A DNA stretch of 64,000 bases from Thiotrichaceae bacterium (GTDB lineage Bacteria > Pseudomonadota > Gammaproteobacteria > Eutrophobiales > Eutrophobiaceae). The number at the start of each line of letters is the position of its first letter. The stretch's first letter is position 1. Shown here in pieces: positions 4,272-49,166 of this stretch. The translations under genes were made by a program, and so were the position numbers. The stretch spans positions 1 through 64,000 of the forward strand of contig DUBV01000022.1 of the NCBI GenBank assembly GCA_012960105.1, written 5' to 3'. Under the pieces are notes generated by a model. That model was not told the DNA's origin. It was given only the letters and a program-made list of their open reading frames with translations, and made no database searches.

Positions 4272-4416
4272 TAAAGAGGTTTGCACGCAAAATAGTTTTC
4301 GTCAGAACAAGGCAAAAGAGGGCGAAAAAGCGCAGTTTACACAAAGTAAATGAGCATTTTGAGTTCTCTTTTAACGCAGTTATGGCGGAAAATATGCCGC
4401 GTGCAGGACTCTTTTA
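4272..4416 (-). repeat. Stop-codon-abutting inverted-repeat element, ahcY copy
   Basis: An element of about 145 bp fills most of the ahcY-metF gap. Read on the minus strand it begins TAAAAGAGTCCTGCACGC, where TAA is the ahcY stop codon itself. It ends with a partial complement of that start (GCGTGCAAACCTCTTTA). The interior has CTGCG near the ahcY side and an inner hairpin with TTTAC and GTAAA arms. The layout and orientation match the copies after purH, fis, hisB and sixA. It is the most diverged member in sequence. Confidence 0.65.
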
Positions 4417-5820
4417 GTAGCGATAGCGATCTGGTTTATATGGGCCATCAACCGTTACGTTAATATAGCTCGCTTGTTCTTCGGTAAGTTCAGTCAACTT
4501 CGCACCGATACGATCAAGATGTAAACGTGCTACCTTTTCATCCAGATGTTTTGGTAAGACATAAACATCTTTTTCATAATTTTCACCACTGGTAAATAAC
4601 TCAATTTGAGCCAACACCTGATTGGTGAATGAATTAGACATGACAAAACTAGGGTGACCTGTTGCACAACCCAAGTTAACCAAACGTCCTTTTGCTAAAA
4701 GAATAATACGTGTGCCATCAGGAAAAATAACATGATCAACTTGTGGTTTGATTTCGTCCCATTCATATTTTTCCAGACTGGCAACATCGATTTCATTATC
4801 AAAGTGACCGATATTAGAAACAATAGCCTGATCTTTCATCTTCACCATATGATCATGTTGAATCACATTGAAGTTACCGGTTGTGGTAACAAAGATATCG
4901 ACTTGGTCACATACATCATCCATCTTAACAACGCGATAACCTTCCATAGAAGCTTGTAGTGCACAAATCGGATCAACTTCAGTGACCCACACGGTAGCAC
5001 CTAGGCCACGTAGAGATTGCGCACAACCTTTACCAACATCGCCGTAACCCAATACCAATGTGACTTTACCCGCGATCATTACGTCTGTTGCACGCTTGAT
5101 ACCATCAACTAATGATTCGCGACAACCATAAAGATTATCGAATTTAGATTTTGTTACAGAGTCATTCACATTGATTGCAGGGAAAGGTAAATCTCCTTTC
5201 TCTTTCAATTGATACAGACGTTGAACACCGGTGGTTGTTTCTTCGGTAACGCCTTGAATACATGCCAAAGTGCGAGAATAGAAAGTACTGTCTTCTGCGA
5301 GCTTTTTCTTCATCGCATTAAACATGCAGATCTCTTCTTCTGAACCTGGATTGTCTAAAACAGAAATATCTTTTTCAGCTTTAGTACCGAGGATTAATAA
5401 TATGGTTGCATCGCCACCATCATCAAGAATCATATTTGGTGAACCGCCATCATCCCATCTCATCATGCGATGGGTGAAATCCCAGTACTCATCAAGGGTT
5501 TCACCCTTATGAGCAAACACAGGAATGTTCTGATCGGCAATTGCTGCTGCAGCATGATCTTGTGTGGAAAAAATATTACATGATACCCAACGAACTTCCG
5601 CGCCAAGGGCGCGTAAAGTTTCGATAAGAACCGCAGTTTGTATGGTCATGTGTAATGAACCGGCAATGCGTGCGCCTTTCAAAGGTTGCTCACTGCCATA
5701 TTCTTCACGAATAGACATTAGGCCAGGCATTTCAGTTTCAGCGATACGAATTTCTTTATGACCCCATCCGGCCAGAGAAATGTCCGCAATTTGGTAATCA
5801 GGTGTTTCAGCTACGCTCAT
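4414..5820 (-). CDS. ahcY: Adenosylhomocysteinase (SAH hydrolase)
   Basis: AhcY splits S-adenosylhomocysteine into adenosine and homocysteine, clearing the inhibitor left by methyltransferases. The protein uses tightly bound NAD. The 468-residue length fits the bacterial form. Landmarks are the [16 protein letters not shown] region near residues 54-69, the NAD site GYGDVGKG, and a C-terminal [11 protein letters not shown] tail of the family type. An AGGAG site lies 6 nt before the ATG. A SAH riboswitch occupies the leader, so high SAH should turn the gene on. The stop codon coincides with the edge of a repeat element. metF lies downstream on the same strand. Confidence 0.98.
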
Positions 5821-5842
5821 GTTGTTCTCCTATTTAACAATA

Positions 5843-5927
5843 TAAGCGAGCGTCGTTGTTCTTTTCCGTGTTTGTTCTGAGCCTAGCGGATATCTACTTC
5901 TATCCGTCGCAACGCTCCTCAGAACTA
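5843..5927 (-). promoter_or_regulatory. SAH riboswitch in the ahcY leader
   Basis: On the minus strand the leader reads GTTCTGAGGAGCGTTGCGAC, then a CGGATA/TATCCG hairpin, then GGCTCAGAAC, and later CAACGACGCTCGCTTATA just before the Shine-Dalgarno site. P1 pairs GTTCTGAG (5918-5925) with CTCAGAAC (5874-5881). The distal ACGCTC/CAACG segment near 5849-5860 can form the pseudoknot with AGCGTTG (5910-5916). The GAGGAGCG, GGCTC and ACGCUCGC signatures and the position before ahcY fit the known proteobacterial SAH riboswitch class, an ON switch. The closeness to the ribosome site suggests control of translation initiation. Confidence 0.93.
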
Positions 5928-6032
5928 CGGTTGTGTGAAAAAGCGGGAGTATAATCCTGCTTCAGCATTCCAACAAGCTTAGCGTCAGAATGTAATAAAA
6001 CTTTAGTAAAAATGCTTTGTGAATGCTGTTAT

Positions 6033-7190
6033 TTAGGCATCACGCAAGGCATCGGCCTTATCGGTTTTTTCCCAAGGCAAATCAATGTCGTTACGACCAA
6101 AATGACCATAAGCCGCTGTTTGTCGATAAATAGGCCGTAATAGATCAAGCATATTGATAATCCCTTTTGGTCTGAGATCAAAATGCTCACGTATTAATTC
6201 GACCAATTTCGCTTCTTCCATTTTGCCAGTACCGAAAGTTTCAACACTAATTGAAGTCGGTTCTGCGACACCAATGGCATAAGACAGTTGTAATTCACAA
6301 CGGTCAGCAAGACCTGCAGCAACCACATTTTTAGCAACATAACGTGCAGCATAAGCAGCAGAACGATCCACTTTAGAAGGATCTTTGCCAGAAAAAGCGC
6401 CGCCACCATGACGCGCCATGCCACCATAAGTATCAACAATAATCTTACGACCGGTAAGACCACAATCGCCAACAGGACCACCAATGACAAATCGCCCAGT
6501 AGGGTTAACCAGATAACGAGTTTTATCGGTAATCATATTTGCAGGAAGAACCGGTTTAATGATTTCTTCAATGACCGCTTCTTCTAAATCTTTGTGTTCT
6601 ATTTCAGGATTATGCTGAGTCGACAATACAACCGTATCTATAGATACCGGTTTGCCACCTTCATAAACTACCGTAACTTGTGATTTTGCGTCAGGTCGCA
6701 ACCAATCAAGCTTGCCGCTCTTACGCACTTCGGCTTGTTTCTTGACCAGTAAATGTGAATAAGTAATGGGGAACGGCATCAGTACATCGGTCTCGTTACA
6801 AGCGTAACCAAACATCAAACCCTGATCGCCTGCGCCTTGATTTAAATCCAGACCTTCGCCTTCATTAACACCCTGTGCAATATCGGGTGATTGCTTATCG
6901 ATAGAGATCAAGACGGCACAAGATTCCCAGTCAAAACCCATATCAGAATGGTTATAACCAATTTCACGGATGGTCTTACGCGCAGCTTCCTGCATATCAA
7001 CATATGTCGATGTGGTAATTTCACCGGAAAGTACCACCATGCCTGTATTAACCATGGTCTCACAGGCAATGCGTGCCTTTGAATCATCCGTGAGAATTGC
7101 ATCAACTACAGCATCAGAAATTTGATCTGCTACCTTGTCCGGGTGTCCTTCAGAAACAGATTCTGAAGTGAATAAATAATTGTCAGCCAT
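6033..7190 (-). CDS. metK: S-adenosylmethionine synthetase
   Basis: MetK makes S-adenosylmethionine from methionine and ATP. The 385 residues match the usual length. Seen are the N-terminal [13 protein letters not shown] motif, [12 protein letters not shown] near residues 118-129 and the glycine-rich phosphate loop [16 protein letters not shown]. It sits upstream of ahcY with about 210 nt between them. That gap contains the SAH riboswitch, so ahcY can be controlled separately from metK. The leader before metK contains a GACTAAATTTAGTC palindrome (7264-7277) but no MetJ-box-like repeat that I can see. The assignment is secure. Confidence 0.98.
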
Positions 7191-7327
7191 GAATCATCCG
7201 TCATTTTTAGAATTTTAAACGCGCGCATTCTATCCTCATTAGCAACGTTGCGCACGAAAATATGACTAAATTTAGTCTAAAAGCGATAATATTCAGACAT
7301 TAATTATGTAAGTACAGGTAAAAGAAC

Positions 7328-7879
7328 ATGATCTTAATGGAAAGCCCGATTTGTGACTTTGGCAAAAAAGCCTTTGATTTCAAACTAGCCGGTGTTGATG
7401 GTAAAGAATGGACATTGGCAGACTGCGCCGGCGAAAACGGCACATTGATCATGTTTCTGTCTAACCACTGCCCTTATGTCAAAGCAATACAGACAAGGTT
7501 AGTCGAAGACACATTACAGCTATTAGATTTGGGAATTAATAGTGTTGCCGTCATGTCGAATGATGCCAGCGAATACCCTGAAGACTCTTTCGAAAATATG
7601 AAAAAAGTCTCTGAAAACTATAACTACCCTTTCCCATTCCTTTATGACGAAACTCAGGAAATTGCCAAAGCCTATAACGCTATTTGCACCCCCGACTTTT
7701 TTGGTTACAACAGTTCACTAGAATTACAGTACCGCGGACGTCTTGATAACAGTGGCATGAAAGTTCCAACAATCGAGTCAAAACGTGACTTGCTTGAAGC
7801 CATGACCGAGGTTGCCAAGACCGGATCAGGGCCACGCGAACAATTTAATAGTATTGGATGTTCGATAAAATGGAAGTAA
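7328..7879 (+). CDS. Thioredoxin-fold peroxiredoxin-like protein
   Basis: A 183-residue protein of the AhpC/TSA-like thioredoxin-fold group. The expected active-site region reads SNHCPYVKAI, so one Cys (about residue 48) stands where a CxxC would be in a thioredoxin. This is typical of the PRX-like subgroup of unclear substrate. There is no signal peptide, so it is probably cytoplasmic. It stands alone between divergent metK and the tkt operon. Two in-frame starts are possible: the first ATG (7328) and one three codons later. An AGGT stretch lies upstream of the first. The specific reaction is unknown. Confidence 0.8.
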   Translation: MILMESPICDFGKKAFDFKLAGVDGKEWTLADCAGENGTLIMFLSNHCPYVKAIQTRLVEDTLQLLDLGINSVAVMSNDASEYPEDSFENMKKVSENYNYPFPFLYDETQEIAKAYNAICTPDFFGYNSSLELQYRGRLDNSGMKVPTIESKRDLLEAMTEVAKTGSGPREQFNSIGCSIKWK

Positions 7880-8095
7880 AAGAGTGTTAATTCAAGCTAA
7901 TATCTTGCTCAAAACCTGCCTTTAAGCGACAATACGCGGCTAAATTTTGGGGTGACACCCTGTCTGTATCACCGTATATATACGGATATTAAGCTTTGCA
8001 CATTGTTCACATCTTTGCTGACATAACACCTAGCTTCGTACTCGACATAACGAAAAATCAATTTCATGGGCGGCAAGCCTATTTGGGAGAAAAAA
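7880..8095. other. Leader region of the tkt operon with a short palindrome
   Basis: The 216 nt before tkt hold GGGTGACACCC near 7950-7960 and a 14-bp palindrome CCGTATATATACGG at 7972-7985, possible operator sites. I see no convincing sigma70 promoter or small gene here. Confidence 0.35.
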
Positions 8096-23731: not shown

Positions 23732-23922
23732 TTGGGTATCTTCTGTGATGCTCGTTATCATATTCGTGGTAACTTGAGCCGATAAGATATTATACAGGGA
23801 GTCTGAAAGCAGTGTTGTTGTGCCATCCATCCACGTGGACAGCCTGATACGCCGCCTAAGATGCCCACTTGAACCTCTGGTTCAAGTTCAATGTATGAGA
23901 CGACGTCATGGTTGATACCTTC
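23732..23922 (+). ncRNA. ssrS: 6S RNA
   Basis: The segment right after zapA folds as 6S RNA. The ends GGTATC (23735-23740) and GATACC (23914-23919) pair, and GTGATG next to them pairs with CGTCAT allowing G-U pairs. The text TTGAGCCGATA near the 5' side and CTTGAACCTCTGGTTCAAG on the 3' side match conserved parts of enterobacterial 6S RNA. 6S RNA binds sigma70 polymerase in stationary phase. Length is about 190 nt and the ends are approximate. Unlike E. coli, no 5-formyl-THF cyclo-ligase gene follows. Confidence 0.92.
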
Positions 23923-28249: not shown

Positions 28250-28843
28250 ATGAGTAATCGTAGCGCGACAATTAAACGTGACACTAAAGAAACACAAATA
28301 GAAGTGTCAATTAACCTTGATGGAACGGGTAAGGTCGATCTTGATGTTGGCGTTCCTTTTCTTGAACACATGCTGGATCAGATTGCCCGACATGGCATGT
28401 TTGATCTAACGGTTAAAGCCAAAGGCGATTTGGAAATCGATGCACACCACACTGTAGAAGATGTAGGCATTACTCTCGGACAAGCGTTCACTGAAGCCTT
28501 AGCCGATAAGAAAGGTATACGTCGTTATGCACATGCCTATGTGCCTCTTGATGAAGCTTTATCTCGCGTCGTAATAGATTGCTCTGGTCGTCCAGGTCTT
28601 GAATACAACGTCAATTATCCTCGGGCTAGAGTCGGTGATTTTGATGTGGATTTAATCTTTGAATTCTTCCAGGGCTTTATTAATCACGCGATGATGACAC
28701 TACACATTGATAGTCTACGTGGGCGTAATTCACACCACATAGCGGAAACCATCTTTAAAGCATTTGGTCGTGCTTTACGAGTTGCTGTGGAACAAGATCC
28801 GCGTATGGAAGGGATTCTACCTTCTACTAAAGGCGCCTTATAA
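28250..28843 (+). CDS. hisB: Imidazoleglycerol-phosphate dehydratase
   Basis: HisB dehydrates imidazoleglycerol phosphate in histidine synthesis. At 197 residues it is the single-function form without the phosphatase domain. The metal-binding motifs are [36 protein letters not shown] and a closing PSTKGAL. AGGT lies upstream of the ATG. The stop codon abuts a repeat element of about 240 bp that separates it from hisH, where many relatives have only a short gap. Confidence 0.97.
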
Positions 28844-28888
28844 AAACACTTTAAAAATGCACTTTTTCCGCGATCGCTGCGTCAGCTC

Positions 28889-28935
28889 GGCAACAGCTCC
28901 ATGCGTTGCACTACCTCCTGCATCCATGCAGTCGT
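28889..28935 (+). repeat. Nested repeat module 1 (CTGCATCCATGCAG type)
   Basis: This segment interrupts the element core between CAGCTC and CGTGCTC. It contains the hairpin CTGCATCCATGCAG (28918-28931) preceded by GCACTACCTC. A near-identical module lies at 28975-29027, and a related one is after rlmH. Confidence 0.65.
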
Positions 28936-28974
28936 CCGTGCTCAAATACTCATGTATAATTTTATACACTGCGT

Positions 28975-29027
28975 TTCTCGGCTTTGGCTTCCTGCGACGC
29001 TCTACCCCCTGCGTCCATGCAGTCGTG
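28975..29027 (+). repeat. Nested repeat module 2 (CTGCGTCCATGCAG type)
   Basis: It contains CTCTACCCCCTGCGTCCATG with CTGCGTCCATGCAG at 29009-29022, in the same orientation as module 1. The fis copy of the host element lacks both modules, which shows they are insertions. Confidence 0.65.
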
Positions 29028-29096
29028 CGCGCGGTGCTTTCTTACACTCACGAAAAAATCACTATTTTTAAAAGTGTTTTAGGAATATGAAAAAGA

Positions 29097-29738
29097 ATGT
29101 CTAAAGTCGTCGTTCTCGATTACGGCAGCAGTAATCTACGTTCTGTTGCCAAAGCACTTGAAGCTGTTGCTAACAATGATCATACGATTATTGTCAGTAA
29201 TGTTTCTGAAACAATTCTAAATGCCGACAAGGTTGTTTTTCCTGGTCAAGGCGCTATGGGACAGTGCATGGCCAATTTGAAGGAGCAGGAACTGGACGAA
29301 GTTATTCGTGAGTGTATTTTGAATAAACCCTTTCTAGGTATATGCCTAGGCTTGCAATCGCTAATGGATCATAGTGATGAAGATGGTGGCATAAAGGGCT
29401 TAGGTATATTGCCCGGTAATGTTATGCGTTTCGAAGATAACGTGAAAGACGAAGAAGGTAATGCTTATAAAATTCCCTCTATGGGCTGGAATCAAGTCTA
29501 TCAATCTAAACCACATCCATTATGGAATAGCATAGAAGATGGTAGCCGTTTTTATTTCGTTCACAGTTATTATGTGAAACCGGAACTTGAGTCAGATGTT
29601 GCAGGTAGCACCGATTATATTTGTCGTTATGCTTCCGCTGCTGCAAGAGATAATTTATTTGCGACGCAATTCCATCCAGAAAAAAGCCAACACGCTGGTT
29701 TGGCTTTATTAAAGAACTTTATTAACTGGAAGGTTTAG
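29097..29738 (+). CDS. hisH: Imidazole glycerol phosphate synthase, glutaminase subunit
   Basis: HisH releases ammonia from glutamine for HisF. The 213 residues hold the class I glutaminase triad: Cys in FLGICLGLQSL, and His and Glu in FATQFHPEKSQ. Upstream is hisB. Downstream, where hisA and hisF usually follow, the convergent helicase gene starts at once and the two coding ends overlap by 17 nt. The histidine cluster is therefore broken here and the partner HisF must be encoded elsewhere. Confidence 0.96.
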   Translation: MSKVVVLDYGSSNLRSVAKALEAVANNDHTIIVSNVSETILNADKVVFPGQGAMGQCMANLKEQELDEVIRECILNKPFLGICLGLQSLMDHSDEDGGIKGLGILPGNVMRFEDNVKDEEGNAYKIPSMGWNQVYQSKPHPLWNSIEDGSRFYFVHSYYVKPELESDVAGSTDYICRYASAAARDNLFATQFHPEKSQHAGLALLKNFINWKV

Positions 29739-31542
29739 GCTTATTACGTTTACGCGAACGTTTTTCTTCAGCCTTTGCACGTTTCTTTCTTTCAGAAGGC
29801 GAACGTTTTTCTTTTTTCTTGCCCGGTTTAGAATCACTACGTCTTGGCGCTTCGCTTCTTTCTTCCAGACGACTAATATTTAGCTGTTGACCAGAAACCC
29901 AAATTTTCTTCAAAGCTCGAAATAAATCACGAGGCATTCCTAATGGTAGATCAACTGTAGCGTATTTATCATGAATCGTTACGTTACGAATATTTTGCCC
30001 ATCGACACCGGCTTCATTAGCAATAGCACCAACGATATTATTAATCTGCACATCATGATCAGTACCAACTTCAATACGAAAACGTTCCATATCTCGATCT
30101 GGGCTTGATTGTCTTGGTCTTCTTTCTTTTGTATTGCTGCGAGACCTGTCGTTATTTCTAGAAGGTCGATCTCTATCTCTTGAGCGGTCATTTCGATTAT
30201 CTCTTTTGGGTTTTGGCTTAACCAAAAAGGGTTCTGTACCTTGTGAAAGTTTTGCTAGAGCGGTGGCGATCTCCATTGCTGATCGTCCCGTTTCAGTTTG
30301 ATACTCTTCTATGATGTTATGAAATAATTCATTTTCTTCATGCTCAAGGGTATCGGTAATACTTTGCTTAAAACGCTGTATGCGTTCCTGGTTGATTGTA
30401 TCCGCCGTTGGCATGTGCATGCGTTCTATCTGCTTGCCGGTGGTTTTTTCTATCATACGTAACAAACGTTGTTCACGATTCGTGACAAATAATATTGCTT
30501 CACCTTCTCTACCTGCGCGACCTGTACGTCCGATACGATGTGTATACGATTCAGGATCACTAGGAATATCGTAATTGATGACATGACTGATACGTTCAAC
30601 ATCAAGACCACGTGCCGCCACATCGGTCGCAATCAACATATCCAGTTTGCCTGCTTTTAAGCGATTAATCGTTTGTTCGCGTATTCTTTGCGTTAGATCG
30701 CCATTCAATGCGGTACTGGCATAACCACGCGCAGCTAATTTTTCTGCAAGTTCTATAGTTAAAACTTTGGTACGTACAAAGATAAGAATAGCGTTGAAGG
30801 TCATACTTTCAAGGATAGTGGTCAATGCTTCCAGCTTTTCACGACCATTTACGACCATATAACGCTGACGGATGGTATCAGCGGTAATATTTTTTGTTTT
30901 TATGGTGACTTGTTCAGGATTGTTTAAATATCTTTTAGATATCTTTCTGATTTCTGTCGGCATTGTTGCCGAAAACAATGCAATTTGACGTTGCTCAGGT
31001 AATTGTTCCAACACCCATTCAACATCATCAATAAAGCCCATACGTAACATTTCATCGGCTTCATCCAGAACCAATGTGGTTAATTTTTCTAGTTTTAACG
31101 TACCACGACGCATGTGATCCATCACTCGCCCAGGCGTCCCAACAACCACATGCACTCCACGTTTAAGTTGACGTAATTGCACACCATATTCCTGACCACC
31201 ATAGATAGGCAAAACATGGAAACCTTTCAAAAAAGTCGCATATTGTTGGAATGCTTCCGCAACTTGAATAGCCAGCTCTCTAGTCGGCGCTAAAACCAGA
31301 ACTTGAGGTGTACTAATTTTGAGATCAATTTTTGATAATATTGGTAACGCAAAAGCCGCTGTCTTACCCGTACCTGTTTGAGCTTGTCCGATAACATCTC
31401 TGCCTTCCAAAACATGAGGAATAATCTCTGCTTGAATCGGAGATGGCGTTTCATAACCTACCTTTTTGACGGCTTTCATTACAGACGCAGAAAGCGATAA
31501 ATCATCAAAAGACAGATCTGGGGCGTTGTCAGTTTTGCTCAT
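29722..31542 (-). CDS. deaD: DEAD-box RNA helicase, DeaD/CsdA-type
   Basis: A 606-residue ATP-dependent RNA helicase. Motifs in order: the Q motif region (YETPSPIQAEIIP), AQTGTGKT, PTRELAIQ, GTPGRVMDH, LDEADEML, SAT, the HRIGRTGR motif, then a C-terminal RNA-binding domain (RFRIEVGTDHDVQINNIVGAI) flanked by Arg/Ser/Lys-rich tails. This build is that of DeaD/CsdA, which helps ribosome assembly in the cold. A possible -10 TATAAT is at 31591-31596 on the minus strand, without a good -35. The 3' end overlaps hisH. Confidence 0.95.
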   Translation of the reverse strand: MSKTDNAPDLSFDDLSLSASVMKAVKKVGYETPSPIQAEIIPHVLEGRDVIGQAQTGTGKTAAFALPILSKIDLKISTPQVLVLAPTRELAIQVAEAFQQYATFLKGFHVLPIYGGQEYGVQLRQLKRGVHVVVGTPGRVMDHMRRGTLKLEKLTTLVLDEADEMLRMGFIDDVEWVLEQLPEQRQIALFSATMPTEIRKISKRYLNNPEQVTIKTKNITADTIRQRYMVVNGREKLEALTTILESMTFNAILIFVRTKVLTIELAEKLAARGYASTALNGDLTQRIREQTINRLKAGKLDMLIATDVAARGLDVERISHVINYDIPSDPESYTHRIGRTGRAGREGEAILFVTNREQRLLRMIEKTTGKQIERMHMPTADTINQERIQRFKQSITDTLEHEENELFHNIIEEYQTETGRSAMEIATALAKLSQGTEPFLVKPKPKRDNRNDRSRDRDRPSRNNDRSRSNTKERRPRQSSPDRDMERFRIEVGTDHDVQINNIVGAIANEAGVDGQNIRNVTIHDKYATVDLPLGMPRDLFRALKKIWVSGQQLNISRLEERSEAPRRSDSKPGKKKEKRSPSERKKRAKAEEKRSRKRNKPKPSS

Positions 31543-31679
31543 GGGGCTACCTTTAGGTATGGAAACGATAAAAATCGTCTGAATATCAACATTATAGACT
31601 ACCGGACAGCAAGCGACCGCGCAGTATACGGGCTTGCTAGCGCGTTACAAGCCAAATGTTTGCGATTGGGAGAAGCTAT

Positions 31680-32531
31680 TTAATGTGTGAAGTGTTGATA
31701 ATACGTTCCATGGTTGGATAAATCAGTAAATTCCAGCTTTTTATTATTATGGTTCATGATGGTCATGTGAACACGGGATATACCTGTTGGCCCGTCATCA
31801 AATTTAACGGTACAGCCCTGACTTCGACCAATTTTGTTCTTACCTATTAATACTGGGTATTCAATATTATTGTAATCTATAAACTTAATCCCATCTTCAA
31901 TTAGTAATTCGCATTTATAATTCGATAATGATAGTTCTATTCTCTCACCTTTTTTAATCCTAATAACGACAGACTTACCTTTCGGTATACTTTTCATTTT
32001 TCTATCCGTACTGTCATACATAGCTTCAGGTTGATCTTTAATATCAAAAGATGATGTACTTGATAGAGAGGTAACATTATCTTCCATTGATTCCGAGTCA
32101 TAATTTTTATCTTGAACAGTCTTAATCAAACCCAGACGATTTGATAAATAACGCAAATACATTTTCAAGGCAATTTGCTTATATTGGCACAACTGAAGTG
32201 ACTCACTACCGTTCAAAGCAACAATAATATCTCGCCAACCATTATCTTTAGAAAAGATAGCTGAATTAGTGGACTTTAGACGCATGGTGATACCGCTAGA
32301 TGTTTCTGGGGATTGGCTAACTAACTTTGAAAGAGTTTCTTTGGCGAAATCTATTGCATCCGATTCTTCTTGTAATGCACCTTTTGATGCTTTTACAGTA
32401 TCGTTAATTTTTTCTAAAGGGATCGCCGTACGCGCATCAAGTGCAAACTCGAAATCATCAAGTGAATTAAAAAGAACCACCCTATTATTAATAGTCAGTT
32501 CAACAGTATTTGTGAATAATCTTTGTAACAT
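31680..32531 (-). CDS. FHA-domain protein with unknown N-terminal region
   Basis: The 283-residue protein ends in a forkhead-associated domain (about 215-283) with GRSQGC, SRVHMTI and DLSNHGT, the phosphothreonine-binding signature. The first 150 residues are unlike any domain I can name and are mostly helical. A Ser/Asp-rich linker follows (about 145-180). No signal peptide or membrane segment is visible. No Ser/Thr kinase, phosphatase or secretion gene is nearby, so its partner is unknown. It lies upstream of deaD on the same strand, with a 137-nt gap. Confidence 0.75.
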   Translation of the reverse strand: MLQRLFTNTVELTINNRVVLFNSLDDFEFALDARTAIPLEKINDTVKASKGALQEESDAIDFAKETLSKLVSQSPETSSGITMRLKSTNSAIFSKDNGWRDIIVALNGSESLQLCQYKQIALKMYLRYLSNRLGLIKTVQDKNYDSESMEDNVTSLSSTSSFDIKDQPEAMYDSTDRKMKSIPKGKSVVIRIKKGERIELSLSNYKCELLIEDGIKFIDYNNIEYPVLIGKNKIGRSQGCTVKFDDGPTGISRVHMTIMNHNNKKLEFTDLSNHGTYYQHFTH

Positions 32532-32691
32532 GAAGACACCTAAAGTATTTACTTATCTTTAAGCGAACATTAACATTTATAGCCCGATCCCTATTGTGAT
32601 GAAGTTCACAAATCATAGAGAATCCGTAATTTGTATAGTGATAAATTTAAAATTATTTCTATAACAAATACTTTATTAGTATGCGGCTCTT

Positions 32692-33126
32692 CTAAGTGAC
32701 CCAGCCTTTATTCTTAGCTCCCTTGGCATACCAAATCAATAATGCAGCAATAATCAGCGGCATTAAAATCATCATCACTATCTCGCCAAAATTATACTCA
32801 ATCGCTGAAGCAGCGATGTTAATTGTATGAATCATGGTAACAACGGTACCAATTAGCGATGCAACAAATAGATAGTAGGCAAGTGACTTTTTGAGAAGAA
32901 GTAAAATACCAGCAAACGTGCCACCAAAAACAGCTATGGCAAAACCACCCGTTGCCCATAATGGCCGACCTTCGATAATAGCTCGATGTGATTCAGGAAA
33001 CGAAGCGACCATCTCTACATTCATTTGCATAAAATAATTCATGACGCCCATGACATTCCAGATCAGAGCAACTACGCTTATCGCCCAGAAACCCTAGTGA
33101 ATATTACTAACAGTTTTATCGTTCAT
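32692..33126 (-). pseudogene. Small multi-pass membrane protein interrupted by an in-frame amber codon
   Basis: An ATG at 33126 with a strong AAGGA site 7 nt upstream opens a frame whose 11th codon is TAG (33094-33096). The same frame then continues without break to 32692. Beyond the stop the text reads GFWAISVVALIWNVMGVMNYFM, a first membrane helix, followed by three more helices. A restart at the inner ATG (33051) would give 119 residues but lacks a ribosome site and the first helix. The stop therefore looks like a nonsense mutation, or else a sequencing error. The family is a small membrane protein of unknown role. It lies 18 nt after purD on the same strand. Confidence 0.75.
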
Positions 33127-33144
33127 TATATTTCCTTAAAAAAG

Positions 33145-34428
33145 TTATTGCTCTCTCTTAACAGCTCTATAACCAATATCCTTTCTATAGAACATACCCT
33201 CATAGTTAATTTGTTTTAATGCCTGATATGCCTCTTGTTGAGCTTGCGTTACTGTTTCGCCCAGAGAAGTAACGCAAAGTACGCGACCACCTGCCGTGAC
33301 GATATCATCATCATTGTTTGATGTGCCGGCATGGAATACTTTCACACTATCAGGAAGTTCTATATCAAGACCTTTTATTACATCACCTTTACTTGCGCTT
33401 TCGGGATATCCTGCTGATGCAGTTACCACACCTAACGCAGCACGCTCATCCCATTCAGCAGAACATTTGTCTAGCGTTTTGTTTGTAGCAGCTAGACATA
33501 GAGAAACTAAATCACTTTTTAAACGCATCATGATCGGTTGTGTTTCTGGATCACCAAAACGACAGTTAAACTCTAATACTTTTGGCGTTCCATCTTTTGT
33601 AATCATCACGCCAGCATAAAGAAAACCAGTATAGATTCTGTCTTCGCTTTCCATACCTTTTATCGTGGGCATGATTACCCCATTCATTATGCGATCATGC
33701 ATTGCTGCATCTACTATCGGTGCAGGAGAGTACGCACCCATACCACCCGTGTTTGGACCTTTATCACCTTCATCTCGTGCTTTATGATCTTGTGAACTAG
33801 CAAGACTCAATACATGCTCACCATCAGACATAACAATGAAGCTGGCTTCTTCGCCTTGCATGAACTCTTCTATAACAACACGATGACCAGCGTCACCAAA
33901 TTTATTACCTGATAACATATCGTTAATGGCTGTAATTGCATCTTCTTCAGTTTCAGCAATAACAACGCCTTTCCCCGCAGCTAAACCATCAGCTTTGATA
34001 ACAATAGGAGCAGGCTTAGATTTTACGTATTCAATAGCAGGCTCAACTTCGGTAAAGACATCATATTCCGCTGTAGGAATGTTATGACGTTTTAGAAAAT
34101 CTTTGCTAAATGATTTGGAACCTTCAAGAATAGCGCCCGCTTTTGTAGGACCAAAACAAGCAAGACCTGCTTGTTGAAATTCATCAACAATACCCGCGCA
34201 TAATGGTGCTTCAGGGCCAATGATAGTGAGATCAATACTTTCTTTTTCCGCAAAGGCCTTTAATGCAACAATATCTTCGGCACCAATAGCAATATTCTCA
34301 AGTTTATCCTCAGTCGCTGTTCCTGCATTGCCGGGGGCAACATAAACTATTTCAACTTGATCAGATTGCGCTGCTTTCCAAGCCAAAGCATGTTCACGAC
34401 CACCACCACCGACTATAAGTATTTTCAT
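33145..34428 (-). CDS. purD: Phosphoribosylamine-glycine ligase
   Basis: PurD (GAR synthetase) joins phosphoribosylamine and glycine with ATP. The 427 residues are normal. Landmarks are MKILIVGGGGREHALAWK, the ATP-grasp segment PIVIKADGLAAGKGVVIA, EEFMQGEEASF, GPNTGGMGAYSPAP and EFNCRFGDPETQ. It follows purH on the minus strand across a 160-nt gap that holds a repeat element. The purH-purD pairing is widespread in gammaproteobacteria. Confidence 0.98.
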   Translation of the reverse strand: MKILIVGGGGREHALAWKAAQSDQVEIVYVAPGNAGTATEDKLENIAIGAEDIVALKAFAEKESIDLTIIGPEAPLCAGIVDEFQQAGLACFGPTKAGAILEGSKSFSKDFLKRHNIPTAEYDVFTEVEPAIEYVKSKPAPIVIKADGLAAGKGVVIAETEEDAITAINDMLSGNKFGDAGHRVVIEEFMQGEEASFIVMSDGEHVLSLASSQDHKARDEGDKGPNTGGMGAYSPAPIVDAAMHDRIMNGVIMPTIKGMESEDRIYTGFLYAGVMITKDGTPKVLEFNCRFGDPETQPIMMRLKSDLVSLCLAATNKTLDKCSAEWDERAALGVVTASAGYPESASKGDVIKGLDIELPDSVKVFHAGTSNNDDDIVTAGGRVLCVTSLGETVTQAQQEAYQALKQINYEGMFYRKDIGYRAVKREQ

Positions 34429-34464
34429 TTAAAACTCTTATTTATTTTATTAAATTGTTTAACG

Positions 34465-34589
34465 TTTTAAGCCGTCAGTTTTGCGCGCAGACGCGGCGCG
34501 GCGCTTTCGAGAAGCGGAGCTTACTATAGTAAGTGAGCATCGCAGAAAGTGGAAGCAACGAAGTATCCGCGTAAATCTGATGCTTAAAA
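34465..34589 (-). repeat. Stop-codon-abutting inverted-repeat element, purH copy
   Basis: The element directly follows the purH TGA (34590-34592). Terminal repeats are TTTTAAGCATCAGATTTACGCG on the purH side and the complement of TTTTAAGCCGTCAGTTTTGCG on the far side. The core contains CTGCGATGCTCACTTAC and a CTTACTATAGTAAG palindrome. It lies between purH and purD, in the same orientation to its gene as the other copies. Confidence 0.7.
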
Positions 34590-36152
34590 TCAGTGGAGAA
34601 AGTGGCGGATGCTGGTAAACACCATTGCTATGTTGTGTTCATCTGCTGCGGCAATTACTTCTTCATCTCTAACAGAACCACCAGGTTGAATTACTGCGGT
34701 AATACCAACCTCTGCCGCTGAATCGAGTCCATCTCTAAAGGGGAAGAATGCATCAGAAGCCATGACGGAACCTGCGACTTTTAGATTTTCATCCGCTGCT
34801 TTAATCGCGGCTATACGTGCACTATAAATACGACTCATTTGTCCTGCGCCTATGCCTATAGTTTGATTATCTCTCGCATAGATTATTGCATTAGATTTAA
34901 CGTACTTAACAACATGCCATGCAAATACGAGATCGTTTATTTCCTGCTCTGTCGGTGTTCTTTTCGTAACAACTTTTAAATCATCTTTTGTTATTATGCC
35001 GCGATCATTATCCTGAACTAGTAAACCACCACTGACACGCTTCATATTTAATTGTTGAATTATCCCATCACGTTGGCCTGCTTCTAATAAACGCACGCCT
35101 TTTTTGGTTGCGATAATTTCTATGCACTCTGCTGCAATTGACGGAGCAATAATCACTTCAACAAACTGACGTTCAACAATAGCTTTTGCTGTGGCTACAT
35201 CAAGCTCTCTATTAAACGCGATAATCCCACCAAAGGCAGAAGTTGGATCTGTTGCATAAGCACGTTCATAAGCTTCAAGAACTGAACCACCTATGGCAAC
35301 ACCGCATGGGTTTGCATGTTTAACGATGACACAAGCTGTTTCATCAAAAGATAAAACACATTCGAGTGCGGCATCGGTGTCACTAATATTATTATAGGAA
35401 AGCTCTTTGCCTTGAATCTGTTTTGCGCTGGCTAATGTTCCTGCAGGTGGATTCGGTTCTACATAAAACGCGGCTGTTTGATGTGGATTTTCCCCATAAC
35501 GTAATTCCTGTTTTTTCTTAAATTGAGTGGAATAGCTTAAAGGATAATTTACCGGTTCTTTTTCTTCATTCATTGCGCCAAGATAATTTGAAACGTTGGC
35601 ATCATAATTCGCCGTGTGTGCAAAAACTTTTTGCGCTAAACGAAAACGTGTTTCGTTACTTACGTTTTTCTCGTTTTCTTTCAGCTCAGTAAGTACAAGA
35701 TTATAATCGACCGTATCGACAATAACTGTAACCGAGGCATGGTTCTTGGCAGAAGAACGTAACATAGCGGGACCACCGATATCGATATTTTCTATGGCAT
35801 CTTCAAATGTGCAATCAGGCTTACTCACTGTTTGTTCGAACGGGTATAGATTAACAACCACCAAATCAATTTCATCTATACCATGTTCCTGCATTACTTC
35901 ACTATCTTTTCCGCGTCGCCCTAAAAGCCCACCATGAATTTTTGGATGCAAGGTTTTAACACGTCCATCCATCATCTCCGGGAAACCGGTATAGTCAGAA
36001 ACTTCAATAACATTAATATTGTTATCCGCTAACAACTTTGCCGTACCGCCGGTGGAAAGAATTTCTATGCCTAATTCGTTTATTTGTTTACAGAATTCAA
36101 CAATACCAGATTTATCAGAAACGCTGACTAGAGCGCGTTTAACTATTGTCAT
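34590..36152 (-). CDS. purH: Bifunctional AICAR transformylase/IMP cyclohydrolase
   Basis: PurH performs the last two steps to IMP. The 520 residues contain the N-terminal cyclohydrolase domain ([36 protein letters not shown]) and the C-terminal transformylase domain with the Lys-His pair in [12 protein letters not shown] and the closing IRHFLH. An AAGGA site precedes the ATG. It sits between fis and purD, with repeat elements in both gaps (36190-36330 and 34465-34589). Confidence 0.98.
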
Positions 36153-36189
36153 TTAAGGGGTCCTTTGATTCACAAAATATACTGAAGTT

Positions 36190-36330
36190 TAAGAGCTTCT
36201 AAAAATAGTGATTTTTTGTGTGAGCGTGAAAGCTTCGCGCGCAAGACCTGAGTGTATAAATAATACATGAAGGTCTGAGTACGGAGCTGACGCTGCTATC
36301 GTGAAAAATGTGCATTTTTAGGAGTTCTTA
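36190..36330 (-). repeat. Stop-codon-abutting inverted-repeat element, fis copy
   Basis: The element begins one base after the fis stop codon (36332-36334). The ends TAAGAACTCCTAAAAATGCA and TAAGAGCTTCTAAAAATAGT are clear terminal inverted repeats of about 30 bp. The core reads GCAGCGTCAGCTCCGTACTC, then an AGACCT/AGGTCT stem with TGTATTATTTATACA inside. This compact copy is the best template of the family. It fills most of the fis-purH gap. Confidence 0.78.
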
Positions 36331-36331
36331 A

Positions 36332-36613
36332 TTAGCCTAGGCCGTATTTCTTTAATCGATTTCGTACCGTTACTCGATTTAAACCAAGCATTTTTGCTGC
36401 GTGAGTGATATTGCCTTTTGTGTAATTCATTACAACATCAAAGAAAGGCTTTTCTACTTCTTCTAAAAACAGGGCGTGAAGGTCGCTCGCTTGATGCCCA
36501 TCTAAATCTTCAAAATAAGCTTCCATCGATTTTTGTACATTCTCAGCCAAACTTCTTTCTTCTACGTCCACCTTTTCAGCTATTTCTTCCACTAGCTGAT
36601 TCGTGCTAATCAT
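36332..36613 (-). CDS. fis: DNA-binding protein Fis
   Basis: Fis is a nucleoid protein that bends DNA and adjusts growth-rate-dependent promoters. The 93-residue protein ends in the diagnostic helix-turn-helix GNITHAAKMLGLNRVTVRNRLKKYG. Its start overlaps the dusB stop by 4 nt (ATGA), the conserved dusB-fis arrangement of gammaproteobacteria. A stop-abutting repeat follows it and purH comes next. Confidence 0.95.
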   Translation of the reverse strand: MISTNQLVEEIAEKVDVEERSLAENVQKSMEAYFEDLDGHQASDLHALFLEEVEKPFFDVVMNYTKGNITHAAKMLGLNRVTVRNRLKKYGLG

Positions 36614-37587
36614 GCTGCTAGTGCCTGCTGTTCGCTAAAGAAATGTTTAAGTGCAAATAATTGTTCATTTGCTGATTCAATCTGGTTTACTACTGCACGA
36701 AATTTATTCGCATTATTTTGTTGCTTGCAGTACCAGCCAATGTGTTTACGAGCGATACGCACACCCTGATATTCTCCGTAAAACTCATGGAGATTTGATA
36801 CGTGCTTAATCAATACTTTACAAATTTCTTTGACATCAGGTAACCCAAGTTTTTCACCTGTATTTAAATAATGATTTATTTCACGAAAGATCCATGGATT
36901 ACCCTGTGCGGCTCGGCCTATCATTATTCCATCTACATTATATGTTTTAAGAATCTCCGCCGCTTTTTCTGGTGTAGTGATATCACCATTAGCAATAATA
37001 GGTATCCCTACTTTTGCTTTAATTTCTCCTGCCGTTTCATGTTCCGCTACACCAGTAAAGGCGCAGGCGCGTGTTCGGCCATGAATAGTCAGTGCCTGAA
37101 TACCAGACGATTCTGCAATCTGCGCAATCTTCAATGCATTACGGTTTTCTTTATCCCAACCTGTTCTAATTTTTAACGTTACTGGGACATCAACAGCATT
37201 GACCACAGATGTCAGAATATTAGAGACTAATTGCTCATCTCTTAATAAGGCAGATCCAGCCATGAGATTACAGACTTTTTTCGCAGGGCAGCCCATATTG
37301 ATATCAATAATTTGTGCGCCATGTTCTACATTAAATTTGGCGGCCTCTGCCATTTGTTCGGGAACTGCACCGGCAATTTGTATGGCTCTAGGCTCAGCTT
37401 CGCCAGTGTGATTTAAACGAAGCTGTGTCTTGCGAGTCTTAAATAAGGCAGGATTCGATGTGACCATTTCAGAAATAACCAGACCCGCACCAAGCTCACG
37501 ACAAAGCAACCTGAACGGTTGATCCGTGACACCAGCCATTGGTGCAAGCACCAAATTGTTTTTAAGTATATAAGTCCCTATAAACAT
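36610..37587 (-). CDS. dusB: tRNA-dihydrouridine synthase B
   Basis: DusB reduces a uridine in the tRNA D-loop with FMN and NADPH. The 325 residues are standard. Visible are LAPMAGVTDQPFR near the start, DINMGCPAKKVC with the active-site Cys, LTIHGRTRAC, IIANGDI and GIMIGRAAQGNPW. It is coupled to fis by a 4-nt overlap. The zinc-ribbon/DUF3426 gene lies 118 nt upstream on the same strand. Confidence 0.96.
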   Translation of the reverse strand: MFIGTYILKNNLVLAPMAGVTDQPFRLLCRELGAGLVISEMVTSNPALFKTRKTQLRLNHTGEAEPRAIQIAGAVPEQMAEAAKFNVEHGAQIIDINMGCPAKKVCNLMAGSALLRDEQLVSNILTSVVNAVDVPVTLKIRTGWDKENRNALKIAQIAESSGIQALTIHGRTRACAFTGVAEHETAGEIKAKVGIPIIANGDITTPEKAAEILKTYNVDGIMIGRAAQGNPWIFREINHYLNTGEKLGLPDVKEICKVLIKHVSNLHEFYGEYQGVRIARKHIGWYCKQQNNANKFRAVVNQIESANEQLFALKHFFSEQQALAA

Positions 37588-42635: not shown

Positions 42636-42644
42636 AAGGTTGTT

Positions 42645-45348: not shown

Positions 45349-45351
45349 ATC

Positions 45352-46035: not shown

Positions 46036-46110
46036 AGTCTGCTATCGGCTGCCATTTCAACCGGTCGATGCAACATCTATTCTCTAACTATATAGAGGAG
46101 GATGTGAAAA

Positions 46111-46278
46111 ATGAAACAACGACCAAGAATATATTACACCGAAGAACAAAAATCGTTGATGTGGGATCGATGGCAAAAAGGTGAGTCTCTTAATGAAATC
46201 GCTCGTCTCTTTGATCGGCATCATCCGTCTATACAGCGCATCTTGTCAGAGACAGGCGGAATCACTATTTCAAGTTAA
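46111..46278 (+). pseudogene. IS30-family transposase N-terminal fragment
   Basis: A 55-codon frame translates as the N-terminal helix-turn-helix region of IS30 transposases (PRIYYTEEQKSLMWDRWQKG, then SLNEIARLFDRHHPSIQRIL). A stop follows at once and the catalytic DDE domain is absent. The leader CCATTTCAACCGGTCGATGCAAC resembles the left end of IS30-type elements. No right end is seen. A perfect GAGGAGG ribosome site remains, so a short DNA-binding peptide could still be made. It sits between trmH and the DUF3579 gene. Confidence 0.75.
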
Positions 46279-46384
46279 ACACTGAAATATAAAAATGATT
46301 ATAAATTTACTAACACAAATCCCCTCTCTCCCTTATACTCCCGCCTTATTAGCCCCACAGACTACAAAATCAGATTTATTCATA

Positions 46385-46672
46385 ATGACTATTAAGAAAA
46401 TAATGCTTCGAGGTACCACCAAAGACGGGAATAAGTTTCGTCCTAGCGATTGGGCGGAGCGACTTTATTATGCATTGGCTACTTATGGGCCAAACGGTCG
46501 ATTGGTGTTTAATCCGCTGGTGAATATCAAGCAGGGTAAGAAATTTAAGTGTTTCGTGATTAAGCCGAAGCTTAAGGAGTCTGATCCGATGACTTATGAC
46601 TTTCTAATCGATTTTGCCAAGGGAAATAATCTGGTAGTGACCGATCAGGACGATAATCCTATAGAATTATAA
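46385..46672 (+). CDS. DUF3579-family protein
   Basis: A 95-residue protein with SDWAERLYYALATYGPNGRLVFNP and a C-terminal acidic tail, features I associate with the DUF3579 family common in beta- and gammaproteobacteria. The inner ATG was chosen; the longer frame from 46295 adds 30 residues unlike the family. No membrane segment. Function unknown. The region upstream is an IS30 remnant. Confidence 0.75.
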   Translation: MTIKKIMLRGTTKDGNKFRPSDWAERLYYALATYGPNGRLVFNPLVNIKQGKKFKCFVIKPKLKESDPMTYDFLIDFAKGNNLVVTDQDDNPIEL

Positions 46673-46723
46673 TTTACTTCGTAAGGGCGATTTGTAATCT
46701 ACTGCGTAAAGTCGACGTATAAC

Positions 46724-47185
46724 TTACTTCACTAACTCCGACTTACCGTCTTCAGGCCAATCCTTAATATAACGCTTCATCAATTCATTCTGGAAGGTGG
46801 ATTCATCTAACGAAGCATAGATAATGTCTCCAATAGACAGCACACCAACGACTTTATCTGACTCGACAACTGGCATGTGACGTACACGATGCTTGGTCAT
46901 GCGAGACATGACTGCGTCCAAGGTCTCATCAGCAGTTGCAGTTAATACTTTCTTAATCATGACATCATCAATACGAACGGTTTCCCAACTATCCGCATTC
47001 TTGACGACATTATGTAAAAAATCGCGTTCGGTAATAATTCCGGCAAGTGAACCGTCATCATGTAATACTAATAAAGAGCCAATACTTCGCCCAAGCATTT
47101 CCTTTACCATGTCTTTCAGCGTGTCATCTGCTGAAATGCTGTAAACGTCACTGCCTTTTTTCTCGAGTATTGATTTTATTTTCAT
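46724..47185 (-). CDS. CBS-domain-pair protein
   Basis: The 153 residues consist almost only of two CBS domains (about 1-65 and 70-140), with GSLLVLHDDGSLAGIITERD and VRHMPVVESDKVVGVLSIGDII. Such pairs bind adenine nucleotides and usually act as a sensor for a partner protein. None is obvious beside it. It stands alone, 93 nt from djlA, which is also on the minus strand and lies upstream. Confidence 0.85.
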   Translation of the reverse strand: MKIKSILEKKGSDVYSISADDTLKDMVKEMLGRSIGSLLVLHDDGSLAGIITERDFLHNVVKNADSWETVRIDDVMIKKVLTATADETLDAVMSRMTKHRVRHMPVVESDKVVGVLSIGDIIYASLDESTFQNELMKRYIKDWPEDGKSELVK

Positions 47186-47278
47186 GGATTTATCGCTCTA
47201 TGTTCTTTCTGAATTCTTATTAACCTGTGCGCAGTATAACCTAACTGGCGGCTGGCTAGCATTAAAGAATTTTTATGA

Positions 47279-48070
47279 TTATTTGAATTGTTTAGCTTTC
47301 TTGATAACCTCATACGCCTTTCTTATTTCATGCGTACGGTCTGTAGCTATTTTCATCATCTCTTCCGGTAAACCTTTTGCGACTAGTTTATCTGGATGAT
47401 GCTGGCTCAATAATCGACGATAGGCTCTCTTTATTTCACTCTTGTTAGCTGACTCATCTATATCCAGTACCGCATAGGCTTGTTTTAATGAAGGCGAACC
47501 ATCATTGCGACCGGCTTGTGATGAACCGCTATGCATGCCACTAATCATGGCGCAAAGGTGTTCAAACTCATGTTGCGATATTCTCAGTATCTGACAGATA
47601 TTCAATAAGACCGTACGTTCAGCAGGATCCATCACGCCATCAGCGTAAGCTGCCATGATTTGTACTTCGATAAACATACGTAACAAATTTGCTCGAAAAC
47701 CGATCTCTTGGCGAAATTGTCTGACTACATCATTTAAAGGAAAGGAGTCTTTCTTACCTTCATTAAATAAATTAATGGCGCCTTTACGTTGCTCCGCATC
47801 CATATCCATTTGTTGCATAACCTGTTTGGCAAGCGCAATTTCATCTGCGGTTACTTGGCCATCGGCTTTACACACATGCCCCATTACCGAGAAGGTTGCG
47901 GTATAGAACATTGTTTGTGCACGTTCTTGCCTGCCAAAGCCTGACTGACCTGCCGGTTGCTCCATGCCCTTATCAAAGTTGTGACCCAAAGCTGCGCCTA
48001 GTACAGCGCCTATAGGACCACCAAACATCATGCCGAAGGTACCGCCGAGTATTTTTCCCCACCAATTCAT
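47279..48070 (-). CDS. djlA: Membrane-anchored DnaJ-like co-chaperone DjlA
   Basis: DjlA stimulates DnaK from the inner membrane. The 263 residues contain a glycine-rich N-terminal membrane segment (WWGKILGGTFGMMFGGPIG), a central TerB-like helical domain with KADGQVTADEIALAKQVM, and a C-terminal J domain with HPD in LLSQHHPDKLVAKG. The three-part build and length agree with DjlA. It is divergent from the methyltransferase gene across about 110 nt. Confidence 0.93.
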   Translation of the reverse strand: MNWWGKILGGTFGMMFGGPIGAVLGAALGHNFDKGMEQPAGQSGFGRQERAQTMFYTATFSVMGHVCKADGQVTADEIALAKQVMQQMDMDAEQRKGAINLFNEGKKDSFPLNDVVRQFRQEIGFRANLLRMFIEVQIMAAYADGVMDPAERTVLLNICQILRISQHEFEHLCAMISGMHSGSSQAGRNDGSPSLKQAYAVLDIDESANKSEIKRAYRRLLSQHHPDKLVAKGLPEEMMKIATDRTHEIRKAYEVIKKAKQFK

Positions 48071-48181
48071 TGTTCTTTATTACCTACCTTATGTTTAAAA
48101 ACAAATATGACTTGATTCATAACTATTCGTTATAATCATGCTTCAAATAAACAACATTACACTATCTTAACGGTAAATATC

Positions 48182-49009
48182 ATGGCTTCAACAAATAAGA
48201 AAAATAAAGAACTATCTGGCCCCACAATGGCTGAGCTAGCAGACCGCCATGTTTGTTATGAAGATTCTGTTCAATGTGTTGAATCCGAAATAGATTTTGT
48301 TGATGCCACCTATAAAAAGCTACGCAAGCGTAATGCGATAACTCTAAGAGAAGATTTTTGCGGCACTACCAATACTTCCTGCGAATGGATAAGACGTCGT
48401 AAAACCAATACCGCACTTAGTATTGATCTTGATGAAGAAGTACTGGAATGGGGCAAGAAAAATAAAATATCAAAACTGAAACCAGAGCAGGCCAAACGCT
48501 TAACCGTTATCAATGATAACGTCATCACCGTAAAAACCGAGCCTGTAGATATTGTTTTGGCAATGAATTTTAGTTACTGGCTACTATTGGAACGCGAACT
48601 CACCATCGATTATTTCAAGAGCGTCTATATCGCATTAGTCGATGACGGCATCTTTTTTCTTGATGCTTATGGTGGCTATGAAGCTTTTCAGGAATTAAAA
48701 GAAAAAACCAAACATAAAAATTTCACCTACATATGGCATCAAAGTAGATACAACCCGATAAATGGTATCGCCAAGAATCATATCCACTTTAAATTTAAAG
48801 ATGGTTCAAAAATGAAGAATGCATTCAGCTATGAGTGGCGAGTCTGGACCATGCCAGAAATAGTAAATATGTTAAGCGAAGCAGGCTTTAAACCAACAGT
48901 TTACTGGGAGCAGGCTGATGAAGATGGAGAAGGTAATGGCGTATTCATTCCGGAGACTGTAGGCGATGCGGATGCGGGTTGGATAGCGTACATTGTTGCT
49001 GAAAAATAA
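48182..49009 (+). CDS. Class I SAM-dependent methyltransferase of unknown substrate
   Basis: A 275-residue soluble protein with a class I methyltransferase layout: motif I region (LREDFCGTTNTSCEWI), then ALSIDLDEEVLEWGKK with the acidic ribose-binding residue, DIVLAMNFSYWLL as motif IV, and GIFFLDAYGGYEAFQEL. It lacks the GxGxG form of motif I, having DFCGTTN instead. A repeat element and convergent sixA lie downstream. The substrate cannot be predicted. Confidence 0.82.
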   Translation: MASTNKKNKELSGPTMAELADRHVCYEDSVQCVESEIDFVDATYKKLRKRNAITLREDFCGTTNTSCEWIRRRKTNTALSIDLDEEVLEWGKKNKISKLKPEQAKRLTVINDNVITVKTEPVDIVLAMNFSYWLLLERELTIDYFKSVYIALVDDGIFFLDAYGGYEAFQELKEKTKHKNFTYIWHQSRYNPINGIAKNHIHFKFKDGSKMKNAFSYEWRVWTMPEIVNMLSEAGFKPTVYWEQADEDGEGNGVFIPETVGDADAGWIAYIVAEK

Positions 49010-49024
49010 CCTTTCTTAATTTTA

Positions 49025-49166
49025 AAATACGCTTCAGAAAATAGAATATTTTTGCAAGTACAAGAATTCACCGCGCGCAGAACCGCAGTGTCTGTGTGAT
49101 ACATGAGGATTTGAGCACGGAGCTGACGCAGTAATTGTGAAAATAAGAATTTTCGGTAGTGTATTT
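49025..49166 (-). repeat. Stop-codon-abutting inverted-repeat element, sixA copy
   Basis: The minus-strand end AAATACACTACCGAAAATTC overlaps the sixA stop codon (49165-49167). The other end, AAATACGCTTCAGAAAATAG, is its imperfect inverted partner. The core ACTGCGTCAGCTCCGTGCTC, then AAATCCTCATGTATC, matches the hisB and fis copies closely. This is the only copy at a convergent junction, between the methyltransferase gene and sixA. Confidence 0.75.

Follow-up and report, generated by a model that had tools for sequence, protein, structure and literature searches.

The 64,000-nucleotide stretch of Thiotrichaceae DNA analyzed here (the 'window': positions 1 to 64,000 of contig DUBV01000022.1, assembly GCA_012960105.1) carries five inverted-repeat elements, each set against the stop codon of a gene—ahcY, hisB, purH, fis or sixA—and each lying in the same orientation to that gene. 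The five belong to a single superfamily that occupies 56 places in the genome. Its members fold into hairpins whose stems differ from copy to copy while remaining complementary, whose internal loops are conserved, and whose better-folding strand is generally the one opposite to the message. We lean, slightly, toward the view that they are non-autonomous mobile hairpins resembling miniature inverted-repeat transposable elements (MITEs), and that they survive where a strong hairpin in the message is avoided. The preliminary description of the window, made from its letters alone, reported the five elements, their anchoring on stop codons and their common orientation; its coordinates, terminal repeats and stop contacts (to within 1 nt) have all proved correct. 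Four findings go beyond it: stems that are copy-specific yet complementary, conserved loops, an asymmetry between the strands, and, in another genus, a set of near-identical copies without sense bias.

A dispersed superfamily

The elements at fis, hisB and sixA make up family A, and those at ahcY and purH family B. Used as a blastn query, the fis copy finds 31 matches in the genome, sixA and hisB among them but neither ahcY nor purH; the ahcY copy finds 10 and the purH copy 5, each recovering other places. Two covariance models were built independently, R1 from 11 family A copies and R2 from 14 family B copies, and each detects members of the other family. R1 detects the ahcY element (E = 5e-11), and R2 detects those at sixA (8.6e-7) and fis (2.9e-4) together with other A copies (best 2e-9). 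It is this cross-detection that makes one superfamily of the five window copies, and the alternative, that they form no common family, fails.

In the genome as a whole (G000; 2.54 Mb in 116 contigs, 98.5% complete), R1 gives 42 hits, comprising 34 places and 8 reverse-strand shadows of the palindrome, and R2 gives 49. Merged, and with one contig-end copy added, these come to 56 places, of which 8 are weak calls. The counts exclude a half element (L039), chance pattern hits (L050, L056, L065, L067 and L072), the eight R1 shadows, and C105:2081, the product of a pattern search that gave 35 hits against 10 with the reversed control. Three further copies lie on the window's own contig (C22) beyond its end, at 90903, 101407 and 108570. 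R2 matches number 42 in this genome and from 0 to 22 across 11 genomes of the same genus. Gene content suggests that the genomes compared here are gammaproteobacterial. In four relatives (genomes are referred to by number) we inspected 18 of 22 matches in G009, 22 of 26 in G017, 20 of 26 in G013 and 6 of 8 in G014, and folded 16, 17, 17 and 5 copies from these sets, respectively. Numerous short copies per genome, 56 places here and the 20 inspected matches of G013, are what one expects of MITEs. As to carriage by phages, two exact patterns gave 0 hits each in viral_contigs, a search confined to exact matches.

Variable stems, constant loops

The elements share one plan. An outer stem leads to internal loop 1 (left side ACTTCGT or CTGCGTC, right side GCCTCGT or CCTTGC); beyond an inner stem lies internal loop 2 (CTCA / CTCCG), and a short terminal stem closes the hairpin. 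A common inner plan had been proposed from the five window copies in the form CTGCG…CNGCG; this motif is loose, for the fis element has CAGCG and CTCAG, and the purH element CTTCGTTGC and CTCCGC.

The outermost stems are specific to each copy and complementary within it. Measured without alignment, complementarity between the two arms is 6.16 within copies against 3.70 across copies in family A (n = 25) and 7.68 against 5.02 in family B (n = 22), with 0 of 2000 permutations as high in each. For the inner stems of 46 copies, including those of relatives and of Bacteroidota, the figures are 6.39 and 4.01 (0 of 5000). An alignment of 21 copies (A5, with L147 dropped), scored against a hand-written structure of 20 pairs, has 77.0% of its cells paired, versus 59.1% when shuffled, and 73 double-changed cells versus 28.2, with a covariation score of 0.421 versus 0.152 (0 of 500 shuffles in each case); 17 pairs are changed on both sides, versus 12.5 (1 of 500). 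Kinship among copies can inflate such counts. Sliding the structure along the alignment leaves 32–46% of cells paired. The invariant columns lie mostly within the internal loops. The terminal repeats are inverted in all five window copies, if imperfectly so; a repeat is shared by copies in G013, but in the window's own genome the outermost bases of the elements are copy-specific. Optional internal modules (e.g. CTTCCTGCGTCGCTCTACCTCCTGCATCCATGCAGTCG) occur at recurring places, in the window element at 28843–29080 and at L018, L019, L051, L326 and L327, and the copies at the hisB site of G003 and G009 differ in such modules.

Position and orientation

Genes were called by a rough rule that took open reading frames (ORFs) in order of length, from the longest down to 50 aa. 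By this rule the 56 places are sense to both neighbors (++) in 35 cases, antisense to both (--) in 7, of context +- in 7 and -+ in 5, and at contig ends in 2. In co-directional gaps, then, sense outnumbers antisense by 35:7 (p = 1.5e-5). For 43 copies the upstream gene runs toward the element, and in 38 of these its same-strand stop codon falls between -6 and 15 nt from the start of the model, an interval chosen post hoc from these data; the count is helped in part by the fact that an ORF entering an element terminates at the element's own first stop. Among ++ copies, 26 of 27 are anchored against 11.8 expected if they were placed uniformly in their gaps, the other 8 of the 35 being spanned by an ORF and omitted. 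Removal of the 8 weakest family calls leaves 33 of 36 anchored and a sense ratio of 31:7. In G009 the sense ratio is 12:2 with 10 of 14 copies anchored, and in G017 16 of 17 are anchored; copies common to several genomes are not independent observations. The claim that anchoring and orientation bias exceed what random insertion would give thus survives a genome-wide tabulation of distances and orientations, the test proposed for it at the outset.

In some copies the stop codon is supplied by the element itself. At L016 (G000 C94:9754), for example, the upstream frame runs into the element and terminates there, and the element apparently encodes its final residues and the stop; the G001 orthologue ends differently.

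Strand asymmetry of folding

When folded as RNA, the strand opposite to the message is the more stable: -60.6 versus -35.7 kcal/mol for the fis element, -55.3 versus -38.4 for ahcY, -51.5 versus -36.5 for purH, and -42.4 versus -31.5 for sixA. The same holds for 54 of the 56 copies in this genome, 16 of 16 in G009, 17 of 17 in G017, 5 of 5 in G014, and 5 of 5 look-alikes from Bacteroidota. Opposed A.C bases outnumber G.U on the sense strand in 38 of the genome's own copies; the reverse is true of 8, and the two are equal in 10. Copies of the -- class, antisense to their genes, are asymmetric in the same direction (13/13). The idea that changes after insertion weakened the hairpin in the message is therefore not supported: the asymmetry holds however a copy lies with respect to genes, and so is a property that the element carries by descent in these lineages. 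Taken together, stems free in sequence but paired, fixed loops and strand asymmetry suggest that the form recognized is a folded single strand, which is unusual for MITEs, and which points to the kind of enzyme to seek.

Filled, empty and decayed junctions

At orthologous junctions the elements come and go. The hisB junction is occupied in 4 of 19 genomes (this one, G003, G004 and G009); in the remaining 15 it is empty, with gaps of ~9–24 nt. Between purH and purD, compared with 16 relatives, the same element is present here and in G001, other copies are found in G007 and G016, and variants in G013 and G015. The purH stop overlaps the purD start in G002, G003, G004, G009 and G017, and the gap is 0 or 1 nt in G005 and G006. 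For nineteen more junctions, 85 stretches from at most six relatives each were judged by eye; those outside the window adjoin genes such as rnhA, queE and uvrD, which we take to be these from their peptides. None of six relatives has an element at rnhA and none of four at dnaB; at uvrD and at dnaJ two of three do. At queE, G003 and G009 have an element, G005 a decayed one and G004 none, and G001 has a scar consisting of the arms only. The outer arm on the dnaB side recurs in G007 and G009, in copies ~1.4 kb past dnaB, so that arms can be inherited rather than taken from the target.

Presence and absence among relatives is mobility or repeated loss. Filled and empty orthologous sites (hisB in 4 of 19, with purH, rnhA, uvrD and others mixed), along with decayed ones, mark the elements as MITE-like residents, as the preliminary description had supposed; copy number, inverted repeats and uneven numbers in relatives lend the same support. 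Its further suggestion, that insertion is aimed at terminator hairpins, fares badly. With purH and purD overlapping in 5 of 16 relatives, and separated by at most 1 nt in 2 more, a pre-existing terminator is not required as a target there and is not supported for that junction, although it is possible elsewhere. A scan of 28700–37000 for intrinsic terminators (G+C-rich stem plus T run) gave two sites, neither of them at the hisB, purH or fis element.

Two further observations belong here. The ahcY 3' ends of five relatives (L268–L272) have no element; by eye, different short hairpins lie right behind the stop, with no obvious T run. When G005 is compared with G003 and G009, the outer arm at hisB might be taken for the native flank copied in inverse orientation; we dropped this reading, since the G005 junction may instead be the scar of a deletion between short direct repeats, which is how it looks at gcvR.

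Distant relatives

G013, of the same family but another genus, harbors near-identical copies with a common end. Of 20 contexts inspected, 1 is ++, 6 are --, 8 are +- and 5 are -+; the sense to antisense ratio, 1:6, differs from the 35:7 of the window's genome (Fisher p = 7e-4). The set is presumably young. A young, near-identical set that lacks sense bias favors selection over targeting as the source of the bias seen elsewhere. By eye, the G013 end often starts TGA-N-TAG, so that the element is able to supply a stop codon. In the copies on C41 and C47 an identical base change appears on both arms, a hint of exchange between arms.

Further afield, the strict loop pattern finds 5 stretches in the GTDB species genomes, a scan that may omit records close to the window. 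All are Bacteroidota by title: Pricia antarctica, a Pricia metagenome-assembled genome (MAG), a Bacteroidales MAG, and one Bacteroidetes MAG with two stretches. They have the same plan, and none of the five is at a stop codon.

How the elements might move and survive

If we read these observations correctly, a trans-acting transposase or hairpin-recognizing enzyme is to be predicted, one that would move the elements by recognizing their folded, better-paired strand. Insertions would persist mainly directly behind an ORF and ahead of the next gene's leader, and the orientation that survives would mainly be the one that puts the less stable strand into the message. The reason for such a filter may lie with the ribosome: in Escherichia coli, hairpins of repetitive extragenic palindromes (REPs) within 15 nt of stop codons stall ribosomes, according to the available text of PMC12306157, and a strong hairpin within ~15 nt of a stop might do likewise here. 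Complementarity of the stems would be maintained by selection on the folded strand, or by hairpin-templated repair. Anchoring and sense bias would then mostly reflect which insertions survive; for the sense bias this is the best reading, with the weaker message hairpin tolerated beside the stop codon.

Several results weigh against this account. In G013, same-strand stops coincide with the left end of 8 copies out of 9 but with the right end of just 4 out of 14 (p = 0.009), and some of the placement may therefore be built in; the preference arises partly because the left end carries TGA and TAG. The youth of that set rests on near-identity judged by eye. Its strand asymmetry is weak (11/17), and over 14 of its copies G.U outnumbers A.C, 54 to 40, the reverse of the balance in the window's genome. 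In G017 the sense bias is not by itself significant (12:4, p = 0.077). Even the sense strand is more stable than its shuffles (z -1.9 to -5.3), so that the 'weak' fold of the message is weak only in relative terms. The same stop triplet recurs at the far end of 10 of 38 copies, against 3–9 of 38 in control windows; single cases of a duplicated stop codon look suggestive by eye, and the stop as a duplicated target site is at most a possibility. In G013, the one draft genome searched for an autonomous element, no transposase was found: there are 54 repeat ends, some of them unpaired; facing ends are only ~140–285 bp apart, and none are separated by the length of an insertion sequence. Two candidates for larger autonomous elements in G013, L326 and L327, have merely a longer internal insert, with no transposase recognized and no distant end pairs.

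A bolder generalization, which we regard as improbable, is that this proteobacterial family and Bacteroidota both harbor one class of folded single-stranded nucleic acid. Two conserved internal loops would define it, its stems could take any sequence that pairs, and its active strand would be opposite to the host's message. Members of it might move as single-stranded hairpins or act as antisense RNA, and their pattern of mismatches would hide the hairpin from the message, permitting life inside operons of core genes.

Other explanations

The elements could instead be intercistronic RNA elements, in which a hairpin behind the stop shields the upstream mRNA or directs its processing and determines how strongly the next cistron is expressed, a role reported for ERIC and Correia/NEMIS transcripts. 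The preliminary description offered this as its alternative, and the 35:7 sense bias, the position at the stop and the covarying stems all agree with it, as do the persistence of some elements at one junction across genomes (queE, uvrD, purH) and the other short hairpins seen by eye after ahcY in relatives without the element. There is precedent, too: in the accessible text of the sources, ERIC lies at gene 3' ends (PMC10969869) and RNase III acts at Correia elements (PMC2229807). Better folding, however, belongs to the strand that the message does not carry, even in copies antisense to genes; hisB is empty in most genomes and other junctions are mixed, and none of the five Bacteroidota copies is at a stop codon. 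We consider it unlikely that this is what the elements principally do.

Alternatively, an enzyme might aim at stop triplets, or at hairpins behind stops, and insert with one polarity, somewhat like YPAL (Yersinia palindromic sequence, RU-2), which overlaps stop codons. The left end does favor stops, in the window's genome and in G013, and the right end less often; TAA…TAA flanks are possible at some copies, such as that at rnhA when compared with the empty G004 site, and the copy-specific outer stems could be target palindromes. Against this, duplication is not clearly above that of control windows, overlapping purH and purD leave no room for a hairpin, G013 lacks sense bias and its end brings its own stop codons, and the dnaB-side arm recurs elsewhere. 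On balance we find targeting of gene 3' ends more doubtful still.

The opposite strand might itself be what functions, as a structured RNA, antisense or small, whose stems tolerate wobble and whose two internal loops are conserved. This would fit its better folding, the excess of A.C over G.U on the sense strand, the covariation and the Bacteroidota look-alikes, but we would be surprised if it were so: no Rfam match comes near cut-off, the conserved loops themselves contribute to the asymmetry, the asymmetry is not clear in G013, and a mobile single-stranded DNA hairpin would yield the same signal.

Comparison with known elements

Adjacency to stop codons is already known for small palindromic repeats such as REPs, and location at gene 3' ends for ERIC, with targeting, selection and function as candidate causes. 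A superfamily with polarized sets (the window's genome, G009) and a near-identical unpolarized one (G013) makes the choice among them testable by comparison.

The elements have several parallels, which we draw from published descriptions, as far as the text accessible to us extends. YPAL elements are likewise miniature insertions (~168 bp) with known empty and filled sites; their targets span or adjoin dyad symmetry, and they are linked to upstream transcripts. They differ in generating target duplications of 3–26 bp, where ours are not clearly beyond the control counts given above, and the YPAL account in that text makes no mention of copy-specific stems with conserved loops (PMC2229807). ERIC (RU-1) of enterobacteria is a 127 bp repeat, co-transcribed with its neighbors, whose orientation affects mRNA stability (PMC2229807, PMC10969869); it has TA ends and a target duplication (PMC2229807), whereas the ends here are copy-specific. 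Correia/NEMIS elements of Neisseria are miniature too, of 107 and 155 bp kinds, and their hairpin transcripts are RNase III substrates (PMC2229807, PMC10969869), but they lie mostly just upstream of genes (PMC10969869), ours directly downstream of stops. REPs, and the BIMEs, occur near the 3' ends of upstream ORFs and at times provide the stop codon (PMC3733652). They are hairpins of 20–40 bp with an unpaired GTAG or CGTC tag (PMC3733652), a definition outside which the window elements fall, being 125–238 bp long with two internal loops. Text searches of the literature on stop-codon-anchored elements, PMC2267715 included, turned up no description of this family in the text available, and searches with motif strings gave nothing relevant among the matches listed.

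The window elements and their surroundings

The features of the window are listed in Table 1. Neighbors are co-directional for four of the five elements; sixA, with a convergent neighbor, is the exception. By ORF coordinates the ahcY stop codon (4414–4416) falls within its element. The hisB stop (28841–28843) overlaps its element by 1 nt and the sixA stop (49165–49167) by 2 nt; the purH stop (from 34590) abuts its element, and 1 nt separates the fis stop (from 36332) from the element there. The core of the ahcY element is CTCATTTACTTTGTGTAAACT at 4334–4354 (-), and that of the hisB element CTCATGTATAATTTTATACACT at 28949–28970 (+). NCBIfam supports the gene names: ahcY, hisB and purH score above cut-off, Fis slightly above (99.7 versus 99) and SixA slightly below (71.6 versus 74.5).

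Table 1. Inverted-repeat elements and structured RNAs in the window
Feature	Positions	Strand	Setting
Family B element	4272–4416	-	At ahcY stop; between ahcY and the methylenetetrahydrofolate reductase gene, both (-)
Family A element with additional internal modules	28843–29080	+	At hisB stop; between hisB and hisH, both (+)
Family B element	34465–34589	-	Abuts purH stop; between purH and purD, both (-)
Family A element	36190–36330	-	Between fis and purH, both (-)
Family A element	49025–49166	-	At sixA (-) stop; convergent neighbor gene 48182–49009 (+)
SAH riboswitch	5841–5926	-	Upstream of ahcY
6S RNA gene	23737–23918	+	

In nine loci searched with Rfam at E values up to 5, no match fell on any element, the sole weak one being Thr_leader (23.3 bits; gathering score 55) in the flank of the L308 element. 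At gathering score, Rfam 15 finds nothing on the elements across the whole window; it does find the 6S RNA gene and the SAH riboswitch, both above that score.

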